Positions 6,160-34,775 of a stretch of DNA of 64,000 nt are shown piece by piece. Under the pieces are notes generated by a model, which had not been told where the DNA came from, did no database searches, and worked only from the letters and a program-made list of their open reading frames with translations. The stretch comes from Hygrocybe punicea (lineage: Eukaryota; Basidiomycota; Agaricomycetes; Agaricales; Hygrophoraceae): the NCBI GenBank assembly GCA_963556145.1, contig OY744466.1, positions 930,001-994,000 on the forward strand, read 5' to 3'. Position numbers and translations under genes: made by a program. Every line of letters starts with the position of its first letter. Position 1 is the stretch's first letter.

Positions 6160-7004
6160 ATGTCGTCCTTGCAATTATCGTCCTCGCAAGAGATAGCTGC
6201 GCGCATCAAGGAGATGGAGCGCGAATTCGCCGAAATGAGGGCGAAAGAGGAGGCAGAAGAACGGAGAAAAGCGGAGGACAAGAGGAAGAAAGCGGAAGAG
6301 GAGAGGAGACAGAAGATCCAGGCGGAGGCGATGAAAAGGGTGGAGGAAGAAACAAAGAAGAAAACGGCGGCGGAGGAGGAGAAAAAGAAAGTGGAGGCGG
6401 CGGAGGAGGGGCCCTCAAGTGCGGAGAAGGGAGAGACGGGTAAGCAAAGGCACATAAATGAAAGACCGGAGTTGACTACAGAAGCAGGGCCGTACAATGC
6501 AAGGTGTGCGCGGAACGCCGGGAAAACTGCGTGTGGCCCGCGTCCGGAAAGGCGCGGAGTTGCGATGCATGCAAGAAGAGGAAAGCGCGATGCGAGGTAG
6601 ATGGTGAAGAGGGTGGAGTGAAGAAGAAAAAGAAAAAGGAGGAAAAGGAGGAATCCGGATCAGAGTACCGCGGAGTGGAGCCTGCGGTAAAGAAGCCGCT
6701 GACGAGGACGGAGCAGCTTCTTCACAAGCTGCTTCGGGCAACAGAAGAAAACACGGCGATGTTGGGACGGGTCGCGGAGGCATGCGAGGGGGTATGGGAC
6801 ACCGTGGAGGATCTCCGCGAACATGCGGCTCAATGGGCCGACCATCTGAGGAACTTAGAGTTCCTCAGAGATAATTCATACCAGCTCCGGAAGTACACTC
6901 CGGAGTCCGAGGACATCGCACCGGAGGAGACGGAAATGGAGTGGGAAGAGGGGGATTTTTTGGGGAAAGGAGGAAACCTTGAAAAGAGTCCGCGAAAATC
7001 GTAA
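6160..7004 (+). CDS. antisense passenger gene of Gypsy-1: coiled coil plus Zn2Cys6-like protein
   Basis: The gene lies between pol and the 3' LTR on the strand opposite gag-pol. Its stop is 10 nt from the pol stop (tail to tail) and its ATG is 122 nt from the LTR, so the LTR may serve as promoter. The first part (6160 to about 6439) encodes a Lys/Glu/Ala-rich coiled coil beginning MSSLQLSSSQE. The second part (about 6495-7004) is in another frame and has the six-cysteine pattern CX2CX6CX10CX2CX6C (CKVC, ENC, SCDAC, KARC), matching the fungal Zn2Cys6 DNA-binding cluster. A Lys-rich stretch, a helical segment and an acidic C-terminus (EETEMEWEEGD) follow. GTAAGC at 6440 and CAG at 6481 look like splice sites, but that pair is one nucleotide out of phase, so the junction or a small indel is unresolved. 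DNA binding is inference. Confidence 0.7.
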
Positions 7005-7014
7005 ATAGACAGAA

Positions 7015-10000
7015 TTAATAGGACGGGCCCGGTTTCGAAGGATAAGCAGAGTGAAAGTCCGAAACGAGCTCAGTAGCATGTCCAAGTTCGGAGGCCAAGA
7101 TCCAAGAAGTTTCTTCGTCAGTGCCTTTGTAGCCCTCCCAATGTACAAGGTACAGTAGCTTGCAAGCACGACGGCGGTTGTCGATCTTGGAATCGAGTAT
7201 TTCGGAGATCTCAAACTCCGGTTCTCCGTCGACAACGACCGGAGGAGGCAGAGGTTGGACACGGTTAGGAATGGTATTCGGAGTCGCCGGTTCGAGCTGA
7301 GAGACATGATAGACCGGGTGAACAGAGCGGAGAGCCTCCGGAAGACGGAGGGTATATGAGTGAGTACCAGCCTTAGCAATAACTTCAAAAGGCCCCAAGT
7401 TCTTCTCAGAAAGTTTCTTGGAGGGTCTAGTAGTCCGGAAATGCTCAGCTTTGACGTAGACGGAATCCGAAACCTTGAAGTCCGGAGGCGGAGCGCGCTT
7501 CAAGTCCGCGTAGTGTTGATAACGTTGTTGTGCCTCAGAGATGGTTTGTCGAAGTTGTTGATGTAACTCATCGAGGTCCACAGCGAATTTTCGTGCGTGG
7601 GCGGAGGAGAGGTCGCGCTCCGGGTGAACAGAAAGGTTAGGGTGGTAACCTTTATTGGCAAAGAAAGGAGAAACTCCGGTAGTGGCGTTTGGAGCGTCGT
7701 TGTAAGCAAATTCCGCAAGAGGAAGGAGGGACAACCAATTATCTTGCTGATAATTGCAATAAACACGGAGATATTGCTCAAGGGTTTGATTGACGCGTTC
7801 CGTTTGGCCATCGCCTTCAGGATGATAACCGGAGGTAAAGTGGAGTTTCATGTCGAGGGCCTTTCCGAGAGACCGGAAAAAATGGGAAACAAATTCCGTG
7901 CCTCTATCGGAGGTGACGTGACTAGGAACTCCGTGCTTAGAAAAAACGTGAATAAGGAAAAGATGTGCGAGTTGGGGGGAAGTAATCGTATCGTAAGTTG
8001 GAATAAAGATCCCTTGCTTGGAAAGACGGTCAACCACAACTAGGATGGCCGTAAATCCTTCGGAGTCCGGAAGTTGTTCGATGAAATCCATGGAAATTGA
8101 ATTCCATGGTTTCTCCGGAATAGGGAGCTGCTTAAGCAATCCGTAAGGACGATGCCGAGGGGTTTTGGATCTCGCGCAGGTTGTGCAAGACTTGCAGTAA
8201 TCACGGACAAAAGTCCGGAGTCCGGGCCAGGTGTATTCCCGCCGGATGATTTCGAGAGTCTTGTTTTGCCCGAAGTGTCCTGCAGTAGGATGATCATGTT
8301 TGGAATGCAAAATCCGGAGTCGTAGGTCATTGACATCGGGGACATAGATACGATTATCGAGGCGTAGAAAACCTAAATCGTCGATAGACCATCGAGGATC
8401 TGGGCCGGAGGTGGTACAGGAAACATGTCCGGAGGCAATAGGATCAACCTGTAGTCCGGAGATGATATTGGAGTGAAGGGAATCGACGTCTATGGTGAAT
8501 CCGGTGCCAAGGACTACATCTTCGAGGGAAATCGCTCGGAGGGATGAAGCCAATTGTTCCGGCCCAAAAACAGGGCGGAAATTGTGAGGATTGGCTTTGG
8601 CGTAGTCGCTATCTCCCCCTTTAGCGTAGACGTCCCAGCGTCGAGTAAGGGTATCGGGCTTAGTGCCAAGCTTGCCTGGGCAAAAGCGGATAACAAAGTT
8701 GAAGCGGGAAAGGAACTCCGACCAGCGGGCTTGACGGCGGGTAAGTAAGCGGACGGTGGAGAAGTACTCCAAATTCTTGTGGTTGGTGATAACGTCGACC
8801 GAAGTAGCAGTACCTTCCAAATAATGCCGCCAGGCAGTGAAAGCGTCGAAGATGGCAAGGAGTTCCTTGTCATGGGTATCGTAGTTCAACTCCGAGTCCG
8901 AAAGGGTATGAGACCAGAAAGCAACCGGATGAATTTCACCGTCAGGATGGTGTACGGAGAGAATGGAAGCAACGGCGTAATCGGAAGCATCAGTCTCCAC
9001 CAGAGTGTCAAACTCGGGTGACCAATGGGAAAGGATTGGAGTGGAAATGAAAGCGGACTTCAAGTCATTGAAGGCGGAACGACACTTACCATTGAAATTC
9101 CATTGTAACCCTTTACGAGTGAGCCGGGTAAGTGGAATAGTGATGGAGGAATAGTTCGGAATGAAACGCCGGTAAAAATTGGCGAATCCAAGGAAGGATT
9201 GAACATCTTTGATCTTCCGGGGTTCCGGCCAATCCTGGATAGTTTGGACCTTGGCAGGATCCATAGAAAGGCCTTGGGGGGAAAGAATGTAACCCAAGTA
9301 TTCCACCGTGTCAACGCCAAAAGAGCACTTCTCGGCGTTGGCATAGAGGCCGTGTTTCCGGAGTCGTCGGAGGACCTCGCGGACATGGTCTACATGATCA
9401 GCAGGGTCATCGGAATAGATAAGGATGTCGTCAAGGTAAACAATGACAGAGACGTCAAGGAGGTCGGAAAAAATATCGTTGACGAAGTGTTGGAAAGCCG
9501 CCGGGGCGTTAGTAAGACCTTCCGGAATTACCAACCATTCAAACGAGCCATAGCGAGTGCGGAAAGCTGTTTTCCACTCATCACCTTTGGCAATCCGGAC
9601 TAAATGGTAGGTGTGTTTAAGGTCGATTTTAGTGTAAATGCGCGCAGTCCGGGGAGCGTTGAGAAGGTCCGCCGTAAGAGGGATAGGATAGCGGTCCTTC
9701 TTCGTGATACGATTGAGTCCTCGGAAATCTATGCAAAGTCGAAGACTTCCATTTTTCTTCCGAGAGAAAAGAATGGGAGCTCCGCAGGGAGAACGGGAGG
9801 AGCGGACGAAACCCGCCCGGAGATTCTTGTCAAGGAATTCCTGAAGGGTCTCGAGCTCTAAGGGTGAAATAGAGTAAATCGGGCCAAAAGGAGGTTTTGC
9901 ACCATCCTCTAAATTAATTTTGAGGTCGTAAGGACGGTGTTCAGGGAGGTTCCAAGCCTTCGTCTTGCTAAAGACGTCAGCGAATTCGTGATACTCTTCA

Positions 10001-10738
10001 GGGATATTGTGAAGGTCCACGGAGGGTTCGGAGGACTCCGGAGGGCCGTAGCTTGCAAAGCGACCGGTGGCGTCAGGTAATCGGACTTCCATACGGAAGA
10101 CCTGAGTGCCGGGTACTTTGCAACCACGCAAAAAGGCTTGAGCGCTGACAAAGGAGATGTCAGGCTTCGAAGCGGATGGTGAAGGAGGTTCGGGCGGAAT
10201 AGACCGAGAGGACGGAGGGGACGGAGGTCGTACTGGAGGGTCTGGAAGTGGTGCCTCGCTAGGCACCGGAGTCGACAACGGAGGCGCGGAATCAGAAGAA
10301 CGGAATTTAACGCTATGCTCGATCCAGTCAATCAACGGATTGTATTTGGCGAGCCAGCTATATCCAAGAACTGCGGAAACAGACGGATCCAACGGAGTGA
10401 CCAAAAATTCTAAGATTAGAATTTCACCAGTAGTAAAACGGACAGAGATAGATACACATTTGTCGATGATTCCACCGGAGGAACCATCAAACAAGCGGAG
10501 GCGTTTCGGAGCAGTAGGAAAAATAGGAAGATTGTGAAGGGAACAAAATTCCGGGTCAATGAAACAATGCGTCGATCCACAATCCACAAGGGTAACGATA
10601 AGCGTGGAAGAATGATAAAGAGAAATCGTCAAGGAATCGTTAGAAAGAGCGGAAGCATTGAGTTTTACTTCCGGTAGCGCACAGTCAGGTTCAACGCAGC
10701 CTACATCCTGTGCCGGAGTATGCAGACTGCTCTCTATT
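7015..10738 (-). CDS. pol: Gypsy-1 pol polyprotein (PR-RT-RNaseH-INT-chromodomain)
   Basis: One uninterrupted frame of about 1240 codons. Counting from the non-AUG codon at 10632: aspartic protease with DCGSTH (near residue 18), reverse transcriptase with YLDD (near 400), RNase H with ETDASD (near 547), a HHCC zinc finger and the integrase triad in SMDFIE, TSDRGTEF and GQTERVNQ (near 849, 908 and 944), and a C-terminal chromodomain (LVHWEGYKGTDEETSW, near 1150), which places it among chromoviruses. The frame has no ATG start and overlaps the end of gag in the -1 register, so it is probably made by frameshifting. The third RNase H aspartate is Asn here (ITNHKNLEY, codon 8782-8784), a change explained by one CpG transition. 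Integrase and RT residues look intact. Confidence 0.95.
8610..8627 (-). promoter_or_regulatory. candidate central polypurine tract in Gypsy-1 pol
   Basis: The sense strand reads ACGCTAAAGGGGGAGATA, identical to the 3' polypurine tract at 6039-6055 except for one extra A. It lies between RNase H and integrase, encoding YAKGGD. Lentiviruses and yeast Ty1 carry central polypurine tracts that prime an extra plus strand. The role here is inferred from the match only. Confidence 0.45.
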
Positions 10739-10742
10739 TTTC
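10734..10742 (-). promoter_or_regulatory. gag-pol overlap with A-run, possible -1 frameshift site
   Basis: Gag ends GAA AAA TAG. Re-reading the last A gives AAA ATA GAG and enters the pol frame, which is open from here to 7015. The pol frame has no ATG near its start. The heptamer is not a canonical X XXY YYZ site, but slippage of a lysine tRNA on the A-run would join the proteins. No test of a downstream RNA structure was made. Confidence 0.4.
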
Positions 10743-11906
10743 CGGTTCCTCTAGAGAATCGGAACTAGAGACCGGAGGTGCGGAGGAAGTGGAGGCGGTG
10801 CGGGCGGCAACGCGAGTGGACGAATACTTGGCCTTGGTGCAATCCTTGGCCATGTGTCCGGCTCCCCCGCATATAATGCAGAGTTTATTGTCGATGCGGT
10901 GTTGACGTTCCGCGGGCTTGAGTTTACCATCCTTGCCTAGCTTATCGGCGTAGACAGGAGGGGTTTTCGGAGTGGTGGAGGAGGTACTACAGGAGTTGGT
11001 AGTTTTGGCAGGGGACTTCTTCTCAGAAGCTTTTTCAGTTGAAGACTTGGCCTCGGAAGTAGAGGCTTTAGCAGAAGAGGATCCCGAAGCACAGGAAATC
11101 TCCGATTTCCGTTCCCAATACCGGGCGTCAAGGAGTTGAGCCTTATCCTTCAGCTCGTAGAGGTTTTTTGGTTTCTCGGATTGGGCAAGTTGATCTTTGA
11201 GGCGATCCGGAAGTCCTCGGTAAAAAGAATGCCATAAGGCACCGATGTCCCAGCCAGTCTGCGTAGCGAGACGATTGAAGTTGACGATATACTTCGCAAT
11301 TCGTTGGTTATCCTTCATTACAAGGTTTTCCAACTCGCTCTCGGCGCTACCTTTAGGGTCCAGAGGTCCGAAATTATTCTGCAACTCCGTGCAGAAATCT
11401 CCGTAATCGGACATGAAGTCCGGCGGATAGGTATCGATATCCGGGTTCTCCAAAAGGTAAGGCTCGAACCACGCAAGTGCGATCCCTTTGAGGTAGGAGA
11501 GGGCGAAGTTGACTTTGGCGCCGTCCGTTTGGAAAGCGGTTGGTCAATCATTGAAATTCAGTTGACACTGAACCAGGAAAGGGCGGAGTTTTGTCGGATC
11601 GGAGGCGTCAAACGTGTCCGGTTCTCGGACTTTGGTGCGTTGCTTGTCGTCTCCTTTGTTTCGGAGAGTAGTGGCTAGAAGAGCGATGGCCTCAGCAAGG
11701 TTGGTGTCATCGCGATTAGGATTGCCCTGTCCGAGAGGATTGTTCTCTTCGAAGACTGGGCGCGGAAATGGTTCGTGTCTCGGAGTGTGAGTTTCTTCTA
11801 ACAGAGAGACCGGGGTTATCATTGGGCGTTGGGATGAGGAGTTTGCCGGTTGAGTAAGTCGATAACGTGTGGGGGTTCTTCGTTGGGAGAAGCCTTGGAA
11901 AGACAT
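10734..11906 (-). CDS. gag: Gypsy-1 gag with one in-frame TGA
   Basis: Reads from the ATG at 11904-11906 (MSFQGFSQRR) for about 390 codons. The first part ends at a TGA (11544-11546) in LNFND/PTAFQTD and the frame then continues without shift. Features are the capsid-like region (ALAWFEPYL, DYGDFCTELQNNFG, LATQTGWD, LKDQLAQSEKP), a Ser/Thr/Lys-rich linker and a CCHC zinc knuckle (CIICGGAGHMAKDC), as expected of a nucleocapsid. The TGA is best explained as CGA to TGA decay at an arginine; readthrough cannot be excluded. Gag would form the particle that packages the element RNA. Confidence 0.9.
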
Positions 11907-11939
11907 GATCAAATGTAAAGGGAATACGACTCAAGAGTT

Positions 11940-11950
11940 GTTCAGAAAAT
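11940..11950 (-). promoter_or_regulatory. self-priming type primer binding site of Gypsy-1
   Basis: The plus strand reads GTTCAGAAAAT, two bases from the 5' LTR. Its exact reverse complement ATTTTCTGAAC occurs once in each LTR (12167-12177 and 4286-4296). In RNA terms the LTR segment can pair with the primer site over exactly 11 nt. The yeast element Tf1 and related chromoviruses prime this way, using the first 11 nt of their own transcript. No tRNA-like TGG primer site is seen here. This predicts transcription starting at about 12177. Confidence 0.7.
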
Positions 11951-11952
11951 AC

Positions 11953-13918
11953 TGTTAGAGGCGTGCAACTCCGGAAGGATCGGAGTTCTTCGGAGGAGCG
12001 GAGACGTCAACTCTTGAAGTAGGTTCACTACTTCCTTAAGTCGTATTAAGAAGACGTGGACGGAGCGGAGTTAGTCCGGAGTTCCGGACTAAGTACTAAG
12101 ATAACTAATGAGCTTAAGGGAAAGCCTTAAGTTTGAGAGTGGGTAAGAAATAAGGAACTCAAGTTGATTTTCTGAACGGAGTTACAGGACATTGTAGTTC
12201 TAGTTTATATACTTGGTAAACTAATTGTCATGTCCTTGGAGACGTGAAGACAATATGAACTCCGGAAAGAGGACTGGAGTTCAGAAGAAAATAAAAAGAT
12301 TAAAGGGTGCTATGTACGGTGACAAGTAAACAAAGGGGAGGAAAAGAAAAGGAGGTCGGAGTAAACGGAGATGGGGAAGAATAGTATTTAACAAGAGAAG
12401 AACAATAACGTACGCTGTTATGTGAATGTTTGTTTCACCAAGAATTACCGGAGTTGACTTTGTTCAGGTACCTTCTTGTTGTTCGTGGGTTTTTAATATC
12501 TAAATAACCTATCAGGAAGGGGTTTGTGGGTATATGTACTATATGAATCAATAGAATGTAATAGTGAGGTCTCTTCAATTAAGAATTGAGACTTTGAGTA
12601 GGTATGAATAGCAATTGGGTGTGTGATGTACTGAAAACAAGAATATTCACTACTGGAATATGAAAATATGAACTAATGAATACTGATAACAATATTCACC
12701 AGTTGAATATGGATGGTTTTGGCTACAGGGCCTATTCAATCAAGAGTATCTCTGGGTATTATAATATCTGACTTAAATCCGAAGCTTCAAACGCACATTG
12801 GCTACTAGTTCAGGGATATCTTTAATACCTTTTGAATACTCTGTTTTGTTTAGGATTGAAACCTTAACCTTAGAAGTGTATCTATTTAGGATGAAACCTT
12901 AACCTTAAAAATGTATCTAGCTGACTAATGCTGACTAATGAATTGATTGAACTGAGTGAACTGGGTGAATTCTCCTTGATGACAAGGGGAACTCAGAGAA
13001 TGATAGAATAAGAGTGAACTAGACTGGATTGCAAGCACTAGCTACTACAATGAGTAACTACTAGTACTAAGAGAATGGGGGATCACACTGTGTGAACCCA
13101 ACTGAGAGTGACTACTGAGTGGTGAGGGGGGAAATCCTACTGACTACTGGAATTTGGGGGCCCTATTTATACTGTTGGAGAACAATGGGGGACTGAGAAC
13201 AATGGGAAAGTGAGAACAATAGGACTGAGTCATGAGAACAATGGATGGCATCAAAGAGGCTGTGAACAATGGGCTCTATCTCCATTTGGACTGTTTAGAA
13301 CAATAGACTGCTCAGAACAATAGACCATTGTCTTTATGTAAGCAGAATATCACAATCACTCTCTGATGCATCCTATCTTATCATTATCTTATCATCCTCT
13401 TGTTCACATCTTATCTAATCATTTCCCATTATCTAGCTGAGCCGCTTTTGATCAATACAAGTAAACAAGATTTGTAATCAATCCATTACTGCTAATATAG
13501 GTAACAATGCTAGTTGGGCTTGTCTCCTTGCACGCGCAATACAGAGAAATATATAGTAAATACTAATGAGTGGGGGATGTGCCTCTGTGCACCATACATA
13601 AACGGCTAGGTCTGGGCATTACTAGTGAAGCCATAATAAATGATATAAAGGTAAGCATATATGCTATTTGTGTCTGTTCACTAGCATGCGTAATGTGGAA
13701 AGGCATAGAATGGGTACTAATGAGTGTAGGTGTGCATCCATAGTGTTGCACTTAAATATCTAAGTCCGTGGTCCGATGGTAAACCCATGACATTACACCC
13801 AAAAACACTTGGGGTCATGACAACGCGAGAAGATAAGATAAGATAAGATAAGATAAGTCGGCGGAAAAGTCCGGAGCGGAGTTCGTCGGAATCCGGCGGA
13901 GCTGCATGGGATATGACA
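11953..13918 (-). repeat. Gypsy-1 5' LTR
   Basis: A 1966-bp partner of 4072-6037, with the same TG..CA ends and about four substitutions. The 11-nt sequence complementary to the primer site is at 12167-12177, so the R region would begin there and leave about 225 nt to the end of the LTR. The flank at 13919-13923 is CTATG, the second copy of the target duplication. Confidence 0.95.
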
Positions 13919-15315
13919 CTATGGTTGTTTCTGTGCTAACTTTTTCCTTTTGTTTTGCTGTGGATGATTCCGTTGGTCTTTGTACATCAAGCGGTTTGCG
14001 TATCTCGTGTTGTGTCGGTTGTGCACACAGGTTGTTTAACTGTCAGTAGTCACAGTTGACTCCTCGTGTTGCTCTTGGTGGGTATGTTATTTCGTTTTCT
14101 GGTCTGCAAATAGCCCTTTCCAGTGCCATTGTGGTGGGTTCCAGTGATTCCATTGTGAGTTCCTGTGGTTCCGGAGTTTGCAAGTCATTAGATTCACTCT
14201 GCTCCCCCTTGAATTGCAAACCCGGTAAGTCAGATACAATCCGGACTTCCTGCAATGCCCGACTCTCGTGAAATGCCACATTCTGTGATGTTTTAACAGT
14301 CCGCATTGCGGCATCCTAGTATCAGATAGCCTTCTGCGACTCCACAAATCCTACGAACTTCATCTTAGCTGATTGTGGTGCCAGCTTCGATCTCTTTCCG
14401 CCTTGATATAAGACCCAAACATCGCATCTGGGCTGCCGGAAATGCGATAAGTCTGGCTTCTTGCCAGTCCAGGCTTCATGCAGAGTCATTCTGTCTAGAG
14501 CCTTGGTGGGGGATCGGTTTCAAATGTATGCTGCATGTGCAACAGCTTCTGGCCAAAAAAATGTGGGCATGTTTTTAGCGATCAACATCATGTGGGCTAA
14601 CTCCAGTAACATGCGATTAAATCTTTCCGCCATTCCGTGTTGCGAGGGTGAGTAAGGGGCTGTTGTTTCAATTCCAATTCCCTTCTCCACTGCCCATCTC
14701 TTGACTTCCCTGTTGACAAGTTCCTTTCCATTATTGAACTGCAAATATTTAGGGTTTTGATCAAACTTCTTCTCAATCGTGTTAACATAAGCCTTGATGT
14801 GTTCCATCGCCTGGCTTTTCTGTTTCATGAATAAAGTGGTTATGGTGCATACCACATTGTCCATGAATGAGATATAGTATCTCGATCCTCCAATAGACTC
14901 TATGCGTGCTGGGCCCCAGACGTCGCTCAAAGTCCACTCTCCAGCAATTTTTGATCGTCCATCGGCCTCTTTCGGAAATGGCTGGACAGCTTGCTTCACC
15001 TGAATGCAAGCCTCATAGGTTCAGGAAGGGACACTCCCTTTGTCAATTTCTAGACCTGTGACTAACCCCTGTCTCTGCAGGGTCTTGAGTCCGCTCATTC
15101 TGATGTGTCCATATAGGTGGTGCCATTCGTCCCAAGACATTTTCTTTGGTGTGGCTACATTTGCCTTTTCCAGCATGTGGGATTGTGCTTGGGCATTCAG
15201 ATGGTATAGTCTTCCAACAAGTTTATTCTCCTTCGTATAGAGCCTGCATATTCCATTGTGGAAGTTAACCCATCCGCCGCTTTCATTGAATCGGCTCAGT
15301 GATAGTAGCGAGTTC
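13919..15315 (-). pseudogene. Ty1/copia pol relic, integrase part
   Basis: Minus-strand reading recovers the copia integrase in order: WHHLYGHI with a broken zinc-binding CXXC (YEAC), LSDVWGPARIES, GGSRYYISFMD, YLQFNNGKEL, TTAPYSPSQHGMAERFNRMLLELA and FFWPEAVAHAAYI, then the linker VWVLYQGGKRSKLAP. The second catalytic aspartate is Asn (FNNG for the usual DNG). Several stops and shifts interrupt it. It continues at 4071 leftwards after Gypsy-1 is removed. Confidence 0.9.
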
Positions 15316-15846: not shown

Positions 15847-17516
15847 TGTAGTGGCGAGGTCAGGGTAGCTATAGAACAAAGATCCTAACCAAGGGGGTGT
15901 CAGCATAGAAGTGATGGTGGAATAGTCAGTATCTAGCTTCAGTAAGGTGTAGAAGGAAAAGAAGTGAAACCTGCTGGGCAACCACTACTGAGAATCTACT
16001 GAACTGACATAAGCCGACGATACCGATGGTGTCAGGTATGGCGGGTCAGGTGTTGTGTGACAAGCAGTGAAGATAGATAACTGTGGTACATGTAGAGAAG
16101 AAGTATAGGATACTGGAGAGTCATACAGTGACAAGACTTAGAGTATGAGATAGACTCTGAGTGGGAGGGAAATGGGGACTTGATTTGTTAATTTGACACG
16201 GTGTAGAGGGTCGATGTCCCTCTGAGTCCGTATCATCAATATATCACGAATCCGGACCAACCCGATGCCGCCATTCGACTTGCATTCGAACCCGACGTAA
16301 CCCGACGTGACGTGACGTGACGTGACCCGACGTGACCGATGTAACCCGACACATGCCGCTTTGTGACGGCCGCTTTTGGGCTAAATCCGGCAGCCTCAAA
16401 CGCCTCGGAGTTCCAATTCCAGGAGATGGATCTCTTTGGACTCAATCCCCGACTTCGGATTTACTTTATTTATGCATCCCCTCATCCTTTCGGAGATATG
16501 TAGGACTTTCTAGATCTTTTCCTTGCATATTCGTTTTCCCCTCCATTTCCTGTCTTCGTTGCTTTGCAACCCCCCTTTCCACATCCCCATTCCAACCTTT
16601 CTTTGTAGCTTACCATCGGCCAAAGTAGACATGTCCGAAAGTAGATTACTGTTTCCTGTACTATAAAAATGGTCCCCGACGACCGTACAAAAAAACATAC
16701 CCTTAGTCCCTGTTTCCCTTTAGTCAGAATCGCCTTTTAATCCCTTCAAATGCTCGTCCATGTAGACCCTTAGCTTTTTATAGTCCACTTCGTCGTCTTT
16801 ATCGTTGTTTCCGTATATTCATTCATTGTTTCCGACCCGACATCGTCGGCATCATCGGGTTCTTTATTATTTGTCCGTTTTTACTCCGTTCATCACCGGA
16901 TTCGTCATTATTAGTCCAGTTTTACGCAGCGGCTTTACTTTTACTAACATTCCCTTCCTTTTACTACTATTCCCGACACTGACTTATCCAGTCACTTCTA
17001 CGCTGACACCCTCTGGTTAGGATCATATTTCTTTATATAGTTCCGAAGCCACACAGAACCCGCATCTACAACGGCAGTTGGGCACCATTTTTATAGTACA
17101 AAATTCTTTATCTAATTTTGGACAAGAGTCCTTGGCCGACGAAGTGATACAAGAGGAAATGGGAATGGGAATGGGAATATGGGTAAGGGGTTGTGAGGAG
17201 ACAATGACATGATAAATGGAGGGTAAAATGAGACTCCACACAAAAAGATGTAAAATACTTCTGTAAGCCCATAAGGAAGGTGAATTGTGCAAAAGAAGTA
17301 AGTCTGATGTCAGGGATTGTGTCCGATGAGATCTGTTCCTAGTGTATGAGATTCTGTGGCTTTTAGGAGTCCAACAGGTTTGGTATGAGAATGGCCATGG
17401 TGGTCGGTGTATGTCGGGTTACATTGGTTTCAAGTCCAAGTTGCTAAAGATGTTGGGTTCGTTTGGATACATGATATATCGGTAATATGGACTCAGAGGG
17501 TTGAGAACCCTCTACG
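15847..17516 (-). mobile_element. Gypsy-2 family LTR, minus orientation, split by a solo LTR
   Basis: The segments 15847-16201 and 17075-17516 together match a Gypsy-2 LTR in reverse (about 795 bp against 782 bp at 20646-21427). On the minus strand it ends CGCCACTACA at 15847, and its first base is C instead of T. It is the 3' LTR of a truncated Gypsy-2 copy whose internal sequence continues to about 17945. The interruption at 16202-17070 is another LTR of the same family. Confidence 0.8.
16202..17070 (+). mobile_element. solo LTR of the Gypsy-2 family, nested
   Basis: An 869-bp segment starting TGTAGAGGGTC and ending CATCTACA, similar throughout to the Gypsy-2 LTR but diverged. It contains a (GTGAC)n-like stretch around 16295-16340. 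ACGG is repeated on both sides (16198-16201 and 17071-17074), giving a 4-bp target duplication. The host sequence reads as one continuous LTR when it is removed. No internal sequence is present, so it arose by LTR-LTR recombination. Confidence 0.8.
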
Positions 17517-17950
17517 TCTTCTAATAGAGACCATCTGTGGGCAACAATACGAGGACTTGGGAAATCGGGATGCGAATGTGAAAAAATCACGTGAGCAGCC
17601 AAACAACAGCAAAGTAAATAAAATAAAATAAAATGTCTTTGTTGATCCATCTTTTCTCCAACACCATCACATGCCCACCATGGCCAAAACCTACGATGCC
17701 TATCTCACATTCATCAAGAGCATTGAACCTGAGATCCAAGCAGAATACGAAGAGGCCATCAACACGGTTACTGGGTTTCATAATGATGACTTCGTGACAA
17801 TGATAGACGGCAATGAGGGGCTGGCTAGGCAATGGCTAAGTGGTCGTAAGAAGGCAATGGTGAGTACCCCAGCTGATGATGCATGTCCTAGGATAGCTAA
17901 TATTATCCCACTAGCATGCTTACCACGGGATTGTTGTGGAGCTCCACATT
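17517..17950 (+). pseudogene. 5' part of a second Gypsy-2 antisense gene
   Basis: Homologue of the antisense gene at 28042-32119. The ATG at 17680 (after CCCACC) opens MAKTYDAYLTFIKSIEPEIQ and exon 1 ends ..RKKAM at 17859. A 55-nt intron (17860-17914, GTGAGT..CACTAG) sits exactly where the Gypsy-2 copy has its 55-nt intron, and exon 2 resumes HAYHGIVVEL. Similarity ends near 17945, where the copy is truncated. The protein region has no domain I recognise; the Zn-cluster part is missing. The shared intron argues that this was a spliced gene. Confidence 0.75.
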
Positions 17951-19057: not shown

Positions 19058-19067
19058 ACAAGGCATT

Positions 19068-19495: not shown

Positions 19496-19505
19496 ACAAG
19501 GCATT

Positions 19506-20645: not shown

Positions 20646-21427
20646 TGTAGAGGGTCCTCAACCCTCTGAGGCCGTAAACTCAATATCTCACAAATCCGCT
20701 CGAACCTGATGTCTCTAGCAATCCACACTCAAACCTGACGCAACCCGATGCATACCGACCAGCACGGCTGCTCACATACCTGGTCAGTCCACCTCCTTAA
20801 CTCACGGAATCCCAATTATCGCAGATGGATCTCATCGGACTCGATTCCCGACATCGGACTTGCCTTATATACGCGTCCCTTCATCCTTTCGGAGATAGGT
20901 ATGAATTTTTAGATTGTTTTCATGGATATTTACTTTCCCCTCCATTTTCCTGTCACCGTCGCATTGCAACCCTCTTCTCATTTCCCTATTTTTGTTTCTC
21001 TTTGTTCTCTCTCATTGGCCGAGGACTCTCATCCAAATCTAGATAGAGAATTTTGTAGTATAAAAACGGTGCCCAAGCGCCATCTCAAAATAAGAGATCA
21101 GTTCCCCCATTTCCTCTCTCTGAGAATCAGTCTCTCAGTAAAGTCCATCGCACACAGTACTCGTCAGTTTCCTCGACGCTCTCCCCGTCATTCTACCGTC
21201 TTTATTTCTACATTGCTCGTCACCTGACACCCGACCCGCCGTACCCGACATCGTCAGCTTCATCGGCTTAGACCGGTTTCGATAGTTTTAGTAGTTTTAC
21301 TCGGCGGCTCTCTACTCTTTCTTTCTTATTATCTCACTGAAGCTTGTTAGACTATTCCTAGTCACTTCTACGCTGACACCACAGGTTAGGATCTTCATTC
21401 CGCAGCCACCCCGACCTCGCCACTACA
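20646..21427 (+). repeat. Gypsy-2 5' LTR
   Basis: 782 bp, TGTAGAGGGTCC to CGCCACTACA. It contains TATAAAAACGGTGCCC near 21060 as a possible promoter box. It also retains the uninterrupted AGACCGGTTTCG site (about 21273) that element B has split in the 3' LTR, so it acts as the empty-site reference. Confidence 0.9.
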
Positions 21428-21445
21428 TCTGGAGCCCACCACGAG
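21428..21445 (+). promoter_or_regulatory. putative primer binding site of Gypsy-2
   Basis: Immediately after the 5' LTR the sequence is TCTGGAGCCCACCACGAG. The TGG-starting segment in the expected position suggests a tRNA 3'-end complement, but I cannot name the tRNA from the window. Confidence 0.45.
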
Positions 21446-21548
21446 GAATAGTCTAGCACCACCATAGCTTTCTCTTCCCGTATCCCTCCCTCTGATCGTC
21501 ATCTTTGAGATCTTCCTCAAAGAACTCTTCAACAAGAACTCTCTTTAG

Positions 21549-24183: not shown

Positions 24184-27100
24184 AAGTCGAGGACTCAGAG
24201 ATACCTCTTGGGAAAGACGCACCAGGAGACGAGAAGCTGCCACTCGAAAGCAACAACACCTATACCACAAACTATTCTTCCCTTTTGCCATTTCCCCTAG
24301 AAGAGGACTTATGTTTTTCCATCGATTTAGATTTCTCTTCGTCTCAGCCACAGACTGCCGCCCAGTACATTTCATTGTTGACTGATGTACAAAATCAGAT
24401 ACGTACTACCGATACCCTTCCTTCATCTTGTTCCATCTCCGCTCCCGCATCATCTATTTCTTCTTCAAATATTTGTAACAAAGCCCCTACTGAACACGCC
24501 ACTTATATCTCGTATACCACCCCCCCTACCAGGGACCTAAAAGGAGTCGTCACCAAGAAAAAGTATAAGAAGGTAGCAGATCATATCCACCCAATTTCTA
24601 CCACTCTCCCCGACGAATACCGAATCATATGCGAGATCACCGGCGACCCGCTAGCCGACTTACCCACGCTCCCGACTCACCCACCCGACTTTACACCTGG
24701 CACCTGCTATACCCAGGAACGACACGACGCGATGCCAATGAACCCAGATGGATTCCTTTGGCCTGAGGAAGAGAAACTCGGCCACCATATCATCAAAACG
24801 CAAGAAGCCGCTTTTGCCTGGAACGAATCCAAGAATGGGCAATTCAACACGGACTACTTCCCACCGATCCACATTCCCACCGTACCACATGACCTGTGGG
24901 TCCATCAAAATATCCCAATCCCACCTGGCATCCTTAACGAAGTCATCGGCATCATCAAAGACAAAATTAACACCGGTACCTATGAACCCTCAAATTTGTC
25001 ATACCGCTCCCGCTGGTTCTGCATTTTGAAAAAGGATGGGAAGTCCCTGCGAATCGTCCATGATCTACAGCTGCTTAATGCCATCACGATCTGTGATCCC
25101 ACCATACCGCCCATGACCGAGCACTTGGCTGAGGCCTTTGGTGGCCACTCTTGCTATGCTTCCTTTAACCTCTTCATCTCTTTTGACCAACGCCTCGTCC
25201 ACGCCTCGTCTCGGGACTATATGACGTTTCAGTCTCCACTCGGAACACTTCGACTTACGCAGATCGCTATGGGATACACAAATTCCCCGCAGATCTTACA
25301 CAGTGACTCCACGTACATCCTCCGTGACGAAATCCCACACCTTGCCATTCCATATATGGACGATATTCCCGTCAAAGGGCCTCCAACCCGCTACGAGCAA
25401 CCCAACGGTACCTATGAGACCATACCCGAGAAACCAGCAATCTGACGTTTCATTTGGGAGCACTTCCAAGGTGTCAACCGCGTCATCCAGCATTTCTGCT
25501 ATGTCAGCAGTACCTTTAATGGCAAGAAACTCAAGTTGTGTTGACCCTCAGTCATCGTTGTTGGCCACCGATGCACATACGAAGGACGAGTAGCCGACGA
25601 GTCCAAAGTGCAGAAGATTCACGATTGGCCTATACCGACCAACCTCACTGAAGTCTGTGCCTTCCTCAGTATCTGTGGCATCTTGCGTATTTTTATCAAA
25701 GACTTCTCACTCCACTCCCGACCCCTTGTCCGTCTTACCCGCAAAGGGACACCCTTCGAATTTGGCGAAGAAGAAGAGACCGCCATCAACTACCTCAAAA
25801 ACACCGTCATCACATCACCAGCGCTGTGTGCTATCAACTACACGCATGAATGGGAAGTGATTCTCGCCGTTGATTCCTCCGTCCTTGGAGTCGGCTTCAT
25901 TCTCATGCAAATCCACACTGACAGAAAATGTTATCCGAATCGCTTTGGTTCAATATCGTGGAATGAACGCGAAGCCCAATACTCCCAGTCCAAGCTCAAG
26001 CTCTATGGCCTCTTCAGGGCCCTCCACGCCTACCGGATCTTTATTGTCGGTGTCTGCAGTCTCACCGTTGAAGTCGACGCCAAATATATAAAAGGGATGC
26101 TCAACAACCCCGACATCCAACCCAATGCGACGATCAACTGATGGATAACCGGCGTCCTCTTGTTCAATTCCAGACTGGTTCATGTACCCACTTCTGCACA
26201 TGGTGCACCCAACAGACTCTCCAGACGCCCCTGCGCTGCAGAAGACCCCGAGGAGATTGACGACTCCGACAATTGGCTCGACCACTCCTATGGTTTCTTT
26301 ATGGAAGTCGTTAACTACCGACCTGTCCCCATGCCGTCTAAGCTGATTGCCATATGCGGCCGCTGCCATGCCACAGCCAACCGACTCCACAAGTTACCCG
26401 CCATCCTTGTCTACACAAATCAGGAAGCCGTTTCTGACATACTGCAATCTGATAAAGCCCGCGCAGCTGACGCTCGTCTTGCTCTTGTCGAGACCTGGTT
26501 ATGAGATCTAACCCGACCCACGAACCTCATGGATGACAAGTACCGTCTGTTCCTGAGATACTCCCTTGAGTTCTTCGTCACCAATAACAAGCTTTGGCGT
26601 AAAGACTGTCACGGAAAACACAAACTCGTCATACCGCCCAACCGTCGGCTTCAATTACTCAAAGATGCTCATGACTCTCTCGGCCATAAAGGCATATTTT
26701 CCGTCTGTGCCCAGCTACTCGACCGTTTCTGGTGGCCGCACCTTGACCACGACGTTAAGTGGTACGTCCAGTCTTGTCATCAGTGCCAAGTACGGCAAAT
26801 GCGTTATCACCACATTCCGCTGACCGTCGCTACACCGGCCTCACTTTTCCGCAAAGCATACGTCGACACGATGTTTATGTCACGATCCGGCGGCTATCGA
26901 TACATTGTCCAAGCCTGTTGCTCCCTGTCCGCTTATCCTGAGTTTCGAATGCTACGCCATGAGACCGGTTCAACCATCAGCACGTTCCTGTTCGAGGATA
27001 TCTTATGCCGTTGGGGTGCCCTTGAAGAAATTGTTACCGACAACGGCAAGCCCTTTGTGGAAGCTCTCGACTACCTCACATCCCACTATGGTATCCAGCA

Positions 27101-27833
27101 CATCCGCATTTTGCCGTATAACTCACAAGCAAACAGACCCGTCGAGCGCCATCACCTAGATGTCCAGGAGGCCATTATGAAAAGTTGTGACGGAGATGAA
27201 AAGAAATGGCATACTGTCACCCATTCCGTATTTTGGGCCAAATGGGTCACCACACACAAAAGCCTCGGGTACTCGTCCTATTACATCGCACACGGAGTTA
27301 AGCCGCTTTTTCCGTTTGACTTTGCCGAAGCTACATACATGGCGCCAACACAAGATGCAATGTCAACAACTGACCTCATAGTCATCCGCGCCCGCCAACT
27401 TCGTGAACGAGAAGCTGACCTCGATCGGGTCAAAGAAAAACTCACCAAGTCTCGACTCGCGTCCGCCCGACAATTTGAAGAGAAATACGCGAACACAATC
27501 AAAACCTTTGACTGTGAACCTGGCAACCTCGTCCTCGTCTGAAATTCTCGTATCAAAATGTCTCTCGATTGAAAGGCAAAGCCACGATACTTCGGGCCCA
27601 TGATCGTCGTCAGGAAAACTCATGGCGGCTCCTACATACTAGCCGAACTCGACGGTGCGGTTTCTAGATCCCAATTTGCCGCTTTCCGAGTTGTACCCTA
27701 CCACGCCCGCTCAAAAATATTGATACCGTTGGACGATTTCTTACAATATCCCGATGCCGACGATACCGATTCAAATGATCTTGATGATCCGACGTACCCA
27801 CCCTCCATAGACTCCTCACCCGACGACGATTAA
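24153..27833 (+). pseudogene. pol: Gypsy-2 RT-RNaseH-integrase relic
   Basis: Recognisable in order: an N-terminal extension (HPISTTLPDEYRI), RT (RSRWFCILKKDGKSLRIVHD, FQSPLGTLRLTQIAMGY, YMDDIPVKGP), RNase H (EVILAVDSSVLGVGFIL, LKLYGLFRALHAYR, TVEVDAKYIKGMLNN), the integrase zinc finger (HDSLGHKG..CHQCQ) and catalytic core (AYVDTMFM, IVTDNGKP, NRPVERHH), and an acidic tail to 27833. TGA stops sit at 25443, 25542, 26139, 26502, 27540 and 27570, all in one frame, mostly where the family has arginine. Several active-site residues remain, so decay is mainly through nonsense mutations. Confidence 0.9.
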
Positions 27834-28041
27834 TCATTTCCTTTATATTCTGTCCACATTATACCCCTATTTTATTTAGTTCCTCTTAGTTTTCTAACGA
27901 TACGACAAATGATGCGAATAGTCCCATGTCTTCGGGAGCCGTCGGCTTTCCTTAGCTGGGTGAACAAGCTGAAAATGTCTTTTTGATATATACAAGATAT
28001 ATTTCTATTTTATTTACATGGACCTATTTTTTTTTTGACAT
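27834..28041. other. spacer between convergent pol and antisense gene
   Basis: 208 bp, AT-rich and non-coding (contains AATATTGA and T-runs), separating the pol stop from the antisense gene stop. It would hold the 3' ends of both convergent transcripts. No terminator motif can be singled out. Confidence 0.4.
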
Positions 28042-29253
28042 TTAGAGGTGGCCGGTCTTGTAGTCGCATCTCATCGCCACCAACATCGCCGATGCCTGCT
28101 CATGGTTGACGCAAAGCCTGTTGAACCATTGACCGAACTGGATAAGGTGCCTGTTCACCTCAGCACCCAGGGACCCTAATTCATCCATCAGCAACGCGAG
28201 TTGCACGGAAACGCTCCCGAAGCTCTCTATCGCCCCATTGAACAGGTTGGCTCCGGAATCCGCCCTAGGCCTTTTCGTCGGCTGCTCCTCTTCCATCTCC
28301 TCCTCCTCTTCATCCGATTCCGACTCCACATCTTCGACGCGCCGTTTACTCGTTGATGCCCGAGCAGGCCTCATCCGGATCGGTTTAGTCGTAAAAGCAA
28401 GTGGTTTCCTCATGCCACCCGCCGCCTCTTTCCCCTTACCGGTGTCCATCTTATGTCATCCCCTGCCCATCCAATGCGTCGCGTTGGTGCATCTTTTCTT
28501 CAGCCTCCGGCATCGTTCGCACATGTAGCCCGTGATGCCTCGACATGCCTCTTGAGCCTTGACGCAGTTGGTGCAGGCTTGTATGGGAAACGGCCCGGTG
28601 AACTGTTACCAGGATCAGTGACTAAAGAACAAATGAACCGACATGGGAACTCACCGTCATACCAGCCAAATCTCCGATCTCTACTCCCAGCATATCTACG
28701 TCTTCTACATCGGCTGGTGTCTCTGGTGCTGGGTTGACGGGGCCTTCCTCTGGCTCAACTGCGACTTTGCCTTCCGGAATCGACCCAGTCCCTGGTTCAC
28801 CTGCGACCGATGCGTTTGCTTCAGCTCGCCATTCCTCGCTGAGCTGCCGCTGATGCGCGGCTCCATCCCTTTCAACCCGGTCTGCTTCTTGAGTCCAGTG
28901 CTGCCCATCCTGCTCTATTCTAAGCTGCTCCCGCCTTTCCTCTGCCGCCTTTTGCCTTTTCTCCGCCTCCGCCCATGCCTGTGCCTCTGCCAACCGTCTG
29001 GCCTCCTCTTCTCACACAGCCGCTTCCTCATCCACCCGCTGTCTAGCCTCTTCCGCCTCCTGCCTCTCTCGGTCTGCCACTTCTTTCAACCATTCCTTGA
29101 CATCGTTAGCATATGATTGGCGGTGGAGTGGTAGCGAGTGCCTAGTCACGTGACGAGGCTCCCACGGTTCGTTGTAGATAGATCCCTGTCAGTAGTCAGT
29201 CCCAATCAAGCCTTCCTCGCCAGCTCTCCAGCGAGACTCTCCAGCTAGCCCCC

Positions 29254-29277
29254 GGAGTGGTACCTCCGTACCACTCC
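29254..29277 (+). repeat. perfect hairpin at the 3' end of the element A LTR
   Basis: A 10-bp stem GGAGTGGTAC/GTACCACTCC with loop CTCC, directly before the primer site; repeated in the 3' LTR at about 31782-31805. Element B has the same structure with GGAGAGGTAC/GTACCTCTCC (32922-32945), a paired change that keeps the stem. Confidence 0.8.
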
Positions 29278-29279
29278 AA

Positions 29280-29305
29280 CGTGGTGATGAGAGCGGATTC
29301 GAACC
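29280..29305 (+). promoter_or_regulatory. tRNA-like primer binding site of element A
   Basis: From 29282 the sequence is TGGTGATGAGAGCGGATTCG continuing GAACC. Its reverse complement looks like a tRNA 3' end: CCA, an acceptor strand and a TTCGAAT T-loop. The spacing is one nucleotide shorter than in a standard tRNA. Element B keeps TGGTGATGAGAG at the same place in its own orientation (just left of 34483). Confidence 0.5.
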
Positions 29306-29500
29306 CAGCTTCTGTCTTGAGCGACTTTCAGCGACTTCCAGCGATTTCCAGTCATTTTTCAGCACCCCAGCGATTTTCCGAGTACAGAGCACAGAGCACA
29401 GAGCACCGCGCACCGAGCAGTTCCCCGAGCACCAAGTGATTTTCCAAGCACCAAACGATTTTCCGAGCATCAAACATTCTCATTTTCTCGACCTACACAA

Positions 29501-31528
29501 ATGACTACGAAAAAGAAGCAAAAAGAACGAGCGAAGAAGGAAAAAACGCGGCGGAAAACCAACACAAAAAGAGAACCAACAATCTCGCCACCAACGGCCC
29601 AGCCCACAGCGACGTGGACCCAAATGAACACAACGACGACGCTCACTGCCCCGGTGCCCGCCAACGCCATCCCAACACCACCCAGTGCCTCCGACCGTGA
29701 ACATTCAACAGCCTCGTCGACCCACCTTACCGCCAACTGTGGCCAGCCAAAAACGAGGCACGGACCCCAAGATTCAACCCTGCACACCACAGCACGCCCA
29801 CCTCCACCAAAAGCGTCGACGTTCGCGCCCGAGCACGCCACGTCGTTATTGCCCACCCAAATGGCCCCACCCTCGCTGCAAAACGCGTCAGAACGCGCCC
29901 CAAACCCAACCGCCACGTTCGCGTCCCCCACCCTCGCAACCACGCCCCAAGTCCCCACAACGTCAACGGCAACCCCGTCTACCGTCTCGCAGGCCCCAAC
30001 GCCGTCCGCTCGCGTGCCCATCACGCCCAACACGACTGCCATGTTACGGCTGCACCCAACGCTGCAGCCTTCGCCTTCAATACTCGGACCATGGCCCCAG
30101 CGTCCAACCACACCCACGTCGACCCAGGAACGGCCAACGCGAGCACCCGTGTGCCCAAACGAACCCCAGTCCAGCCCAGCTGCTGCCGCCACGTCACCAA
30201 CGAACGTGAAGCACCGCGAAGCACCACCAGCACCTCAGCCGCAACCCCAACGTACGGCCCCGCCCCCGTTGACCCGGAAACCACAGACGCCAATGCCGGT
30301 GTGCCAAGACGAGCCCCAGCCCACGTCAAACGCGTCCACCACGCCGTCCCACAATGCCAACCACCTCCAAACCGAGCACGGACGCGAATGCCCAGCGCCC
30401 GCGGCTCTCGCCACCCCCAACCCAAAGCACCCCGGAGCAGAGCGCAGCCGCGTGCTCCCTTCGAAATACCCCAACCCCAGCGCCAAAAGCGGCCGTGAGC
30501 GCGAACGCCCGGCGTGTAGACCTAACCCCAATGCAAAGCCAACCCCAGAGCCCTGTCCCGCGCCCGTTCCATCCCAGCCTGCAACCTTGTCCCACCCCGA
30601 CCCGAAAAGGTCGCACGAGCGCGAGTGTTCAACGCCCACTGGCATACTCACTTCCAGCACCGCGAAACCGGCCTCGAAACCCTTCCAACACGAACGTCTA
30701 ACGCCTACACCGTCTCGACCCACCATCCCCGTCTACCCTGACCCAAAACCAAACCACCAACGCGGGCGTCCCGCCCCCACACCATACCACGCTTCCGGCA
30801 ACCACCAGACACGCTACGACGGCCGAGCATGGCCTCTGCCATCCCAAATCGCGGAGATCCTCGCAGGAGAGAACCGAAACGAGAGGGATGGTGCTCCGAG
30901 GCGAAACATCAAAGGGCAAGATGAGAAAAAGCAACAACCCGCGAGCACGGAGGCACATACCGGACCTGCGACTGCACACGAGGCAGACCCACCTATGGCC
31001 ACAAAACAATATGCCGACGCGTCTACGCAAACGGAACCCGTGGAAACACCACCATCAGCATACCACGACAATATCCCTGCCCCGAAAACCCAAGCCGTCC
31101 TTGCATTCAACATTCCCTGTCAAAACCATACCTGGCGCGACACCCGCCCCACCCACGCCCCTATTTGGCGACCGAAGAGCATCCCTACCCTCACCTACCC
31201 CCGAGCGCAAAATCCATGGTCCACGCTTTGCTACCGTCACCGCCGTGTCCACCCTCAAAACCTTCCCCCGAGATACCCCGTACATAAAATCCCACCTCAT
31301 TGTCAACCATACCCAACACATTTCGACAACTCCCCATTCCGAGTACAACCCCGCCATCTTCCCACCATCTCTATGCGAAACTCATCAAAACTTCCAGCTT
31401 GTGTCCACGACGTTTCTCCTGCCTTTTCCCAACCCTCTGTTTCCTTTCCATCTTTTTCTGGACAAGTTCCCATTCCCTTTGATCCCAGTCTTGGACCTCC
31501 TTTGCTAGACCCCAGTGGAGTAGACTAG
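29501..31528 (+). CDS. Pro/Thr-rich 675-residue protein of element A
   Basis: A single open frame starting MTTKKKQKERAKKEKTRRK (very basic), then about 550 residues rich in Pro, Thr, Ala, Asn and Arg. Loose repeats of roughly 40-50 residues recur (GRECPAP.., RERERPA.., HERECSTP.., QHERLTPTP.., QRGRPAPTP..). No retroviral domain, zinc knuckle or membrane segment is visible. The GC- and C-rich strand bias could keep such a frame open by composition alone, so it may not be a real protein; an RNA-binding Gag-like role would be a guess. Confidence 0.35.
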   Translation: MTTKKKQKERAKKEKTRRKTNTKREPTISPPTAQPTATWTQMNTTTTLTAPVPANAIPTPPSASDREHSTASSTHLTANCGQPKTRHGPQDSTLHTTARPPPPKASTFAPEHATSLLPTQMAPPSLQNASERAPNPTATFASPTLATTPQVPTTSTATPSTVSQAPTPSARVPITPNTTAMLRLHPTLQPSPSILGPWPQRPTTPTSTQERPTRAPVCPNEPQSSPAAAATSPTNVKHREAPPAPQPQPQRTAPPPLTRKPQTPMPVCQDEPQPTSNASTTPSHNANHLQTEHGRECPAPAALATPNPKHPGAERSRVLPSKYPNPSAKSGRERERPACRPNPNAKPTPEPCPAPVPSQPATLSHPDPKRSHERECSTPTGILTSSTAKPASKPFQHERLTPTPSRPTIPVYPDPKPNHQRGRPAPTPYHASGNHQTRYDGRAWPLPSQIAEILAGENRNERDGAPRRNIKGQDEKKQQPASTEAHTGPATAHEADPPMATKQYADASTQTEPVETPPSAYHDNIPAPKTQAVLAFNIPCQNHTWRDTRPTHAPIWRPKSIPTLTYPRAQNPWSTLCYRHRRVHPQNLPPRYPVHKIPPHCQPYPTHFDNSPFRVQPRHLPTISMRNSSKLPACVHDVSPAFSQPSVSFPSFSGQVPIPFDPSLGPPLLDPSGVD

Positions 31529-32920
31529 TTTCTTTTTCAGTCTTTTTTCCTCTTTCTTTCCTCTTCCCTTTTTTTCTTTTTTTCTTTCTTTCTTTCTTTC
31601 TTTCAGGTCTTCGATAGCGACGAGGACGTCGCTATGAGGGAGGGGGGCAATTGGAGTGGTAGTGAGTGCCTAGTCACGTGACGAGGCTCCCACGGTTCGT
31701 TGTAGATAGATCCCTGTCAGTAGTCAGTCCCAATCAAGCCTTCCTCGCCAGCTCTCCAGCGAGACTCTCCAGCTAGCCCCCGGAGTGGTACCTCCGTACC
31801 ACTCCAGCGGTCGGCCCATAGTGGCGGCGTTACTGGCCTTATTCCACCAGCTTGGAGTTCCACGACGATTCCATGGTAAGCACGCTAGTGGGACGATGTG
31901 AGCTATCCTAGGACATGCATGATCAATTGGGAAACTCACCATCGCCTTCTTGCAGCCACTTATCCATTGCCTGGCCAACCCCTCGTTGCCGTCCACCATC
32001 ATAACAAAGTCATCGTTGTGAAACACGGTGACCGCATTGACAGCCTCTTCGTAGTCCGCCCGGACATTGGGTTCAATGCTTTCAATGAAGGCGAGGAAGT
32101 TGTCGTAGATTTGGGACATGGTGGGCGTGTGATGGTCTAGAGGAAAAGTCGGATCAACGAAGAGATTTTTTTTATTTTTTTTACTTTGCCATTGTTTGGC
32201 CGCTCACATGATTGGCCACACTCGCAACCCGCATTTGGAGACACCATATTCTTGACCACGGATGGTCTCTATTAGAAGACCCAAGGAGATGTAGAGGGTC
32301 CTCGACCCTCTGAGGCCGTAAACTCAATATCTCACGAATCCGCTCGAACCCGACATCTCTAGCAATCCACGCTCGAACCCGATGCAACCCGATGCATACT
32401 GACTAGCACGGCTGCTCACATACCTGGTCGGTCCACCTCCTTAACTCACGGAATCCCAATTATTGCAGATGGATCTCATCGGACTCGATTCCTGACATCG
32501 GACTTGCCTTATATATGCATCCCTTCATCCTTTCGGAGATAGGTATGAATTTTTAGATTGTTTTCATGGATATTTACTGTCCCCTCCATTTTCCTGTCAC
32601 CGTCGCGTTGCAACCCTCTTCTCATTTCCCTATTTTTGTTTCTCTTGGTTCTCTCTCATCGGCCGAGGACTCTCGTCCGAATCTAGATAGAGAATTTTGT
32701 AGTATAAAAACAGTGCCCAAGCGCCATCTCAAAATAAGAAATCAGTTCCCCCATTTCCTCTCTCTGAGAATCAGTCTCTCAGTAAAATCCATTGCACACA
32801 TTACTTGTCGGTTTCCTCAACGCTCTCCCCATCATTCTACCGTCTTTATTTCTACATCGCTCATCACCTGACACCCAACCCGCCGTACCCGACATTGTCA
32901 GCTTCATCGGCTTAGACCGG

Positions 32921-34620: not shown

Positions 34621-34775
34621 CCGGTTTCAATAGTTTTAGTAGTTTTACTTGGCAGCTCTCTACTCTTTCCTTCTTATCATCTCACTGAAGCTTGTTAGAC
34701 TATTCCTAGTCACTTCTACGCTGACACCACAGGTTAGAATCTTTATTCCGCAGCCACCCCGACCTCACCACTACA

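Follow-up and report, generated by a model that had tools for sequence, protein, structure and literature searches.

Antisense genes in two Gypsy families

A 64,000-nucleotide stretch of the Hygrocybe punicea genome (assembly GCA_963556145.1, contig OY744466.1, positions 930,001 to 994,000; hereafter the window, in which the positions below are counted) was found to contain two Gypsy-type long terminal repeat (LTR) retrotransposons, Gypsy-1 and Gypsy-2, each carrying, on the strand opposite to gag-pol and in the interval from pol to the 3' LTR, a gene for a coiled-coil and six-cysteine protein. The antisense genes of both families are under purifying selection, with a constraint comparable to that on the element enzymes. 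A new observation is that each family is also enriched in a CGG-containing motif of its own; Gypsy-1 has CGGAG(TT) across much of its length, and Gypsy-2 has GTCGGGT in and near its LTR. We tentatively favor, at slightly less than an even chance, the reading that the antisense gene encodes a DNA-binding self-regulator that would recognize its own element, like the plant VANC proteins. An original prediction, made from the window sequence, had proposed both genes; their presence, position, and strand were confirmed, but both window copies turned out to be broken and the genes to be spliced, with one intron in Gypsy-1 and two in Gypsy-2.

The Gypsy-1 antisense gene (6160-7004, plus strand) consists of exon 1 (6160-6439), which encodes the coiled coil and, in open copies, a basic KRKR-type stretch, a 42-nt intron (6440-6481), and exon 2 (6482-7004), which encodes the six-cysteine cluster, a Lys/Glu linker, and a helical C-terminal part. 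The frame of the window copy is broken by a short deletion in exon 1, which was present in none of the 13 sister copies of like orientation. The Gypsy-2 antisense gene lies on the minus strand. Its exon 1 (31940-32119) encodes a conserved N-terminal domain with no Pfam match and is followed by intron 1 (31885-31939, about 55 nt). Exon 2 encodes the coiled coil and is split by a 2.7-kb insertion (about 29124-31809) with flanking 158-bp direct repeats into a 5' piece (31810-31884, placed from open copies) and a 3' piece (28655-29123), the borders of both pieces at the insertion being approximate. Intron 2 (28603-28654, about 52 nt) precedes exon 3 (28042-28602), which encodes the cluster and the C-terminal part. 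Apart from the insertion, this copy has two in-frame stops, one in the 3' piece of exon 2 and the other after the cluster. The insertion itself contains a Pro/Thr-rich open reading frame (ORF) of 675 amino acids (29501-31528, plus strand).

Copies across the genome and selection

The 92.2-Mb genome was searched as a whole, and the 30 best-scoring loci per family, window copies included, were studied more closely; these loci are thus a non-random sample. With Gypsy-1 exon 2 as the query, 93 matches were obtained, of which 47 had full or nearly full coverage at an identity of at least 92%, and the others were fragments or more diverged copies, mostly of 43-73% identity. The search with the Gypsy-2 cluster gave at least 150 matches, as 150 of 432 candidates were scored. 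Once the 42-nt intron was spliced out, 24 of the 30 Gypsy-1 loci encoded a product of 263-280 amino acids; three of the remaining six had no located acceptor and were not assessed, and three, including the window copy, failed. For Gypsy-2, an open frame ran from the ATG across three exons in 13 of 30 loci, the two GT...AG introns measuring about 55 and 52 nt. The stop codon was in place in 12 of these loci, and exon lengths among the open loci varied by multiples of three. Sense-strand introns would be lost via the spliced genomic RNA. The introns of these genes may have been retained because the genes are antisense, the reverse-transcribed genomic RNA being the other strand and unspliced at these sites.

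The position of the gene was constant. On the opposite strand, 30/30 Gypsy-1 loci had the 3' end of pol at a constant distance, and 25/30 Gypsy-2 loci had it within a range of 32 bp, which makes 55 of the 60 loci together; in the other five Gypsy-2 loci, the integrase was not found inside the fetched flank. The element order was identical in all six loci of 8.5-10 kb. Among the nine diverged Gypsy-1 relatives (L073-L081), pol pieces lay antisense next to the gene in eight, and L079 was the one in which none was found. The gene also keeps its slot in a Gypsy-1 subfamily of about 66% identity. The matches in this genome are therefore tied to Gypsy 3' regions and not scattered. The antisense gene of locus L059 (G000:C39:5378388-5381525) was a mosaic of a diverged N-terminal half, with an exon 1 about 57% identical to that of the window, and the common zinc-cluster half, which suggests recombination between lineages.

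The ratio of nonsynonymous to synonymous substitution rates (omega) was estimated with a codon model in IQ-TREE (GY+F3X4), the stop codons of some copies being masked. The omega of the Gypsy-2 gene was 0.466 (19 of the 30 copies; 2dlnL of 104.9 against an omega of 1), compared with 0.322 for the integrase (16 fragments). Wrong-frame controls were run for Gypsy-2 only: values of 1.24-1.83 were obtained in both remaining forward frames and in two reverse frames, and 0.549 in the third reverse frame. For Gypsy-1, exon 2 had an omega of 0.285 (15 sequences, 8 close and 7 diverged; 2dlnL of 113.8) and the end of pol one of 0.345 (12 sequences). The retained function that had been proposed for these genes is thus borne out by the fixed antisense position, the conservation of splice sites, and a selection comparable in strength to that on pol, and the comparison of copies suggested at the time did reveal purifying selection.

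The six-cysteine cluster

When all six frames of the 64 kb were scanned for CX2CX6CX5-16CX2CX6C, the only hits were the two clusters and one low-complexity cysteine run (343-453). The Gypsy-1 cluster (6498-6593, plus strand) reads CX2CX6CX10CX2CX6C and the Gypsy-2 cluster (28489-28575, minus strand) CX2CX6CX7CX2CX6C, so that the predicted middle spacers of 10 and 7 residues were both recovered. Zn2Cys6 clusters are defined by the spacing CX2CX6CX5-12CX2CX6-8C, and both clusters conform to it. The six cysteines were kept in 14 of 15 Gypsy-1 sequences and in 30/30 Gypsy-2 loci, the latter having been picked by this very motif. A coiled-coil-type region precedes the cluster in both proteins.

The assignment of the clusters to Zn2Cys6 in the original prediction could be upheld in part. 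The spacing agrees with it, and Foldseek gave 21 PDB matches for the predicted Gypsy-1 domain, each of them a Zn2Cys6 DNA-binding domain, although none reached an E value of 0.001 or below. However, the pieces scored 12.1 and 18.3 bits against Pfam Zn_clus (PF00172), under the gathering cut-off of 21, and the full-length proteins of both families matched no Pfam family at E<=0.1. In each cluster, it was the second half that aligned best to PF00172, at profile positions 1-15 and 3-14. In canonical Zn2Cys6 domains, the basic half (CX2CX6C with Arg/Lys) comes first; in both clusters here it comes second, as if the halves were swapped, which also argues against this identity. As part of the reading stated at the outset, and with the same slightly less than even confidence, both products may be described as coiled-coil proteins with a Zn2Cys6-like binuclear cluster that would bind zinc. 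The notion of a shared accessory gene holds for the slot, which is the same in both families, but is not supported for descent: profile-profile comparison detected no homology between the Gypsy-1 and Gypsy-2 proteins beyond the cysteines.

Family-specific CGG motifs

The motifs were discovered by searching. CTCCG/CGGAG was the most over-represented 5-mer of the Gypsy-1 element (z of 14.6), and its counts exceeded those of dinucleotide shuffles in the LTR (14 vs. 1.3), the antisense gene (17 vs. 3.9), pol (45 vs. 10.9), and gag (11 vs. 4.0). The 45 motifs in pol were also above all 200 synonymous-codon shuffles (mean of 20.6, maximum of 31), and the sites on the pol coding strand showed little reading-phase preference (10, 11, and 13). 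In the 560 bp of a sister LTR without the insert described below, 13 sense-strand CTCCG were counted (1.25 expected; maximum of 6 in 500 shuffles). The longer AACTCCG occurred 30 times in the window (6.2 expected), 25 of them in Gypsy-1 with LTR pairs counted twice. Over the whole element, diverged relatives showed moderate CTCCG enrichment (z of 6.2 and 3.9). CTCCA was enriched alongside CTCCG in the relatives L073 and L074, as expected if the CpG of the motif had decayed to CpA.

The LTRs of three Gypsy-2 copies (L069-L071) contained 5, 4, and 6 ACCCGAC (about 0.1 expected), partly spaced in 9-10-bp steps, and CTCCG was absent from them. None of these sites was reversed, a ratio of 15:0 where shuffles expect roughly 3-5 to 1. 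The window Gypsy-2 had 11 ACCCGAC: each LTR held two, another four lay immediately inward of the 5' LTR, and three were further in. Read on the antisense strand, the motifs are CGGAGTT in Gypsy-1 and GTCGGGT in Gypsy-2, both of which include a CGG triplet, and the CGG triplet is favored by Zn2Cys6 proteins.

The elements in the window

On the minus strand, Gypsy-1 is inserted as a complete element whose LTRs are nearly identical and which has a target site duplication (TSD) on both sides. Its 3' LTR (4072-6037) is 99.75% identical to the 5' LTR (11953-13918; BLAST pair 4072-6041/11953-13922), and the identical flanks are CTATG (4067-4071 and 13919-13923). The pol region (7015-10632, minus strand) encodes protease, reverse transcriptase, ribonuclease H, integrase, and a chromodomain-like C-terminus, whose chromodomain match of 24.7 bits is slightly under the Pfam cut-off of 25.1, and Gag has a CCHC knuckle. 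Inside the LTR lies a 1407-bp TGTTA...TGACA segment (4535-5941) with ACGC at both borders and AGAACAAT repeats within; the same segment is present in the other LTR and missing from the sister LTR in L072. It is apparently the solo LTR of a different element, later copied together with Gypsy-1.

Gypsy-2 lies on the plus strand. Its 5' LTR is at 20646-21427, its 3' LTR (32288-34775) is split by an insertion at about 32921-34617, and pieces of pol with ribonuclease H and integrase are at 25608-27542. The two LTRs are 94% alike, and Gypsy-2 is an older insertion than Gypsy-1. TSDs of 5 and 4 bp had been predicted for the two elements; the former was found, and for the latter there is a possible candidate (GCGA/GTGA, with one mismatch). 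Gypsy-2-type elements repeatedly carry insertions of 1.7-2.7 kb with direct repeats of 141-165 bp, resembling small LTR elements (29124-31809, 32918-34620, and L069 3374-5539). A third antisense gene, now a relic, is represented by its exon 1 (17680-17859, plus strand), which matched Gypsy-2 exon 1 at 70% in tblastn and lies within or at a Gypsy-2-type LTR fragment (17078-17946). Such fragments occur in opposite orientations over 16202-17946, and the one at 16202-16850 holds five ACCCGAC in a single orientation. Elsewhere in the window, two near-identical 814-bp palindromic repeats with nested inverted arms lie 15.5 kb apart (45837-46650 and 61357-62170).

Possible roles of the antisense genes

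If the antisense gene encodes a self-regulator, it would be transcribed from just inside the 3' LTR, opposite to gag-pol, and its product would dimerize, enter the nucleus, and bind the CGG triplets in the LTR motifs of its own family, CGGAGTT in Gypsy-1 and GTCGGGT in Gypsy-2. It would then regulate, and most likely promote, element transcription, either by transactivation or, like plant VANC, by sequence-specific protection from silencing. Binding to the LTR had been among the functions originally suggested; the enrichment of family-specific motifs in LTRs gives this circumstantial support, and the binding itself is a prediction. A bolder proposal, which we regard as doubtful, is that fungal Gypsy elements independently evolved VANC-like self-recognition, in which a swapped-half Zn2Cys6-type protein would read a CGG "barcode" of its family over the element or its LTRs and counter host silencing, with separate protein-motif pairs per family in the same slot.

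Several findings limit the weight of the motifs as evidence for the self-regulator. The Gypsy-1 motif was biased to the sense strand (12:2, 14:3, 34:11, and 8:3 in four segments, 68:19 in sum), but shuffles of the same segments already yielded 2.0, 5.8, 2.6, and 2.0 to 1; therefore, most of this bias is compositional. Among the diverged relatives, each L074 LTR held only 2 motifs (0.3 expected), and the examined part of the L073 LTR only 1 (0.1 expected). Of four control stretches taken from the window, two likewise contained a 6-mer exceeding their shuffle maximum (z of 7.6 and 9.5), so that the shuffles somewhat flatter the motif enrichment; nevertheless, the LTR 7-mers exceeded these control values (15.6 in Gypsy-1, 15.6 and 18.8 in two Gypsy-2 copies). 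In the left Gypsy-2 LTR of the window, no 5- or 6-mer rose above the shuffle maximum, and the Gypsy-2 motif was at most weakly enriched beyond the LTR region.

The gene could instead be a negative or copy-number regulator, its protein or an antisense RNA dampening the sense transcription of its own family, much as HBZ of human T-lymphotropic virus (HTLV) dampens sense transcription and Ty1 limits its own copy number. As the gene is oriented toward pol, its transcription would run against that of the sense strand, and a DNA-binding protein with sites in its own LTR suits repression as well as activation; selection on the protein, however, makes a role of the antisense RNA only unlikely. We consider such a regulator unlikely, bearing in mind that activation, protection from silencing, and repression would look alike at the sequence level. 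Less probable still is a factor for integration targeting or chromatin tethering, in which the cluster and coiled coil would guide the element to host chromatin in the manner of chromodomains. This agrees with the predicted DNA-binding fold, and the scanned Gypsy-2 pol pieces, which end at or before the integrase C-terminus, had no chromodomain match; but Gypsy-1 has a chromodomain-like integrase end as well as the gene, and the motifs are concentrated in the elements compared with the rest of the window.

The one-sided motifs (68:19 in Gypsy-1; all 11 ACCCGAC of the window Gypsy-2 on the sense strand) might also be RNA elements of the genomic RNA, recognized by an RNA-binding or packaging accessory protein. 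We give this a low probability: a CCHC knuckle is already present in the Gypsy-1 Gag, the predicted domain resembles DNA-binding Zn2Cys6 folds, much of the Gypsy-1 strand bias is compositional, and the VANC21 DNA motifs are likewise arrayed in the same orientation, according to PMC5735166. That both window copies are broken would suit a passenger, a functionless fragment of a captured host transcription factor. Host genes can indeed be picked up by LTR elements. This explanation is nonetheless largely refuted and barely credible, given that omega is well below 1 in both families and comparable to that of pol, that splice sites are conserved and exon lengths differ by multiples of three, and that two families and the Gypsy-1 subfamily have the gene in the same slot.

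If the self-regulator reading is correct, fungal LTR retrotransposons have a self-encoded DNA-binding regulator in a slot known from plant antisense ORFs, and each family has a protein-motif code that can be tested. The ways in which retrotransposons evade or adjust host silencing are not settled, and the present protein-motif pairs allow this question to be addressed in fungi. Such genes may also pass as host genes in automatic annotation.

Comparison with known systems

Antisense accessory genes in this slot are already known from plant Retand elements (TRP28) and HTLV (HBZ); in the literature searched, largely at the level of abstracts, no earlier fungal zinc-cluster antisense gene in this slot was found. 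TRP28 resembles the present genes in its slot after pol and before the 3' LTR, its antisense orientation, its conservation across families, and its product, a predicted DNA-binding protein of unknown function. However, its hosts are flowering plants rather than a fungus, its domain PF04195 had no match in either full protein here (Pfam, E<=0.1), and the words "zinc" and "intron" occur 0 times in the text of the TRP28 paper, which mentions no zinc cluster. HTLV-1 HBZ is an antisense gene near the 3' LTR whose product is a nuclear coiled-coil-type regulator of the bZIP class. The present genes share the location and the coiled-coil type and may share the role as nuclear regulators, whereas no bZIP match was obtained in the full proteins (Pfam, E<=0.1). 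GAL4-type Zn2Cys6 factors (PF00172) have a compatible six-cysteine spacing and a coiled coil as possible dimerizer; unlike them, the Gypsy clusters are element-borne, score below the cut-off, have the basic half second, and follow the coiled-coil-type region.

HTLV antisense genes are mentioned in PMC11963269. As described in PMC5735166, the VANC anti-silencing proteins of Arabidopsis VANDAL transposons recognize family-specific motifs arrayed densely in their own element, and an element-encoded protein with a dense, family-specific short motif in its own element is likewise found here. The binding is proven for VANC and predicted for Gypsy-1 and Gypsy-2; the VANC21 motifs are same-oriented and mainly non-coding (PMC5735166), whereas the Gypsy-1 motif also fills coding sequence and owes much of its strand bias to composition. 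Moreover, the present genes belong to LTR retrotransposons and not to VANDAL transposons. Taken together, the Retand-type slot, the VANC-like motif pattern, and the fungal-type zinc cluster are the reasons why a self-regulator is favored for the antisense genes of Gypsy-1 and Gypsy-2.

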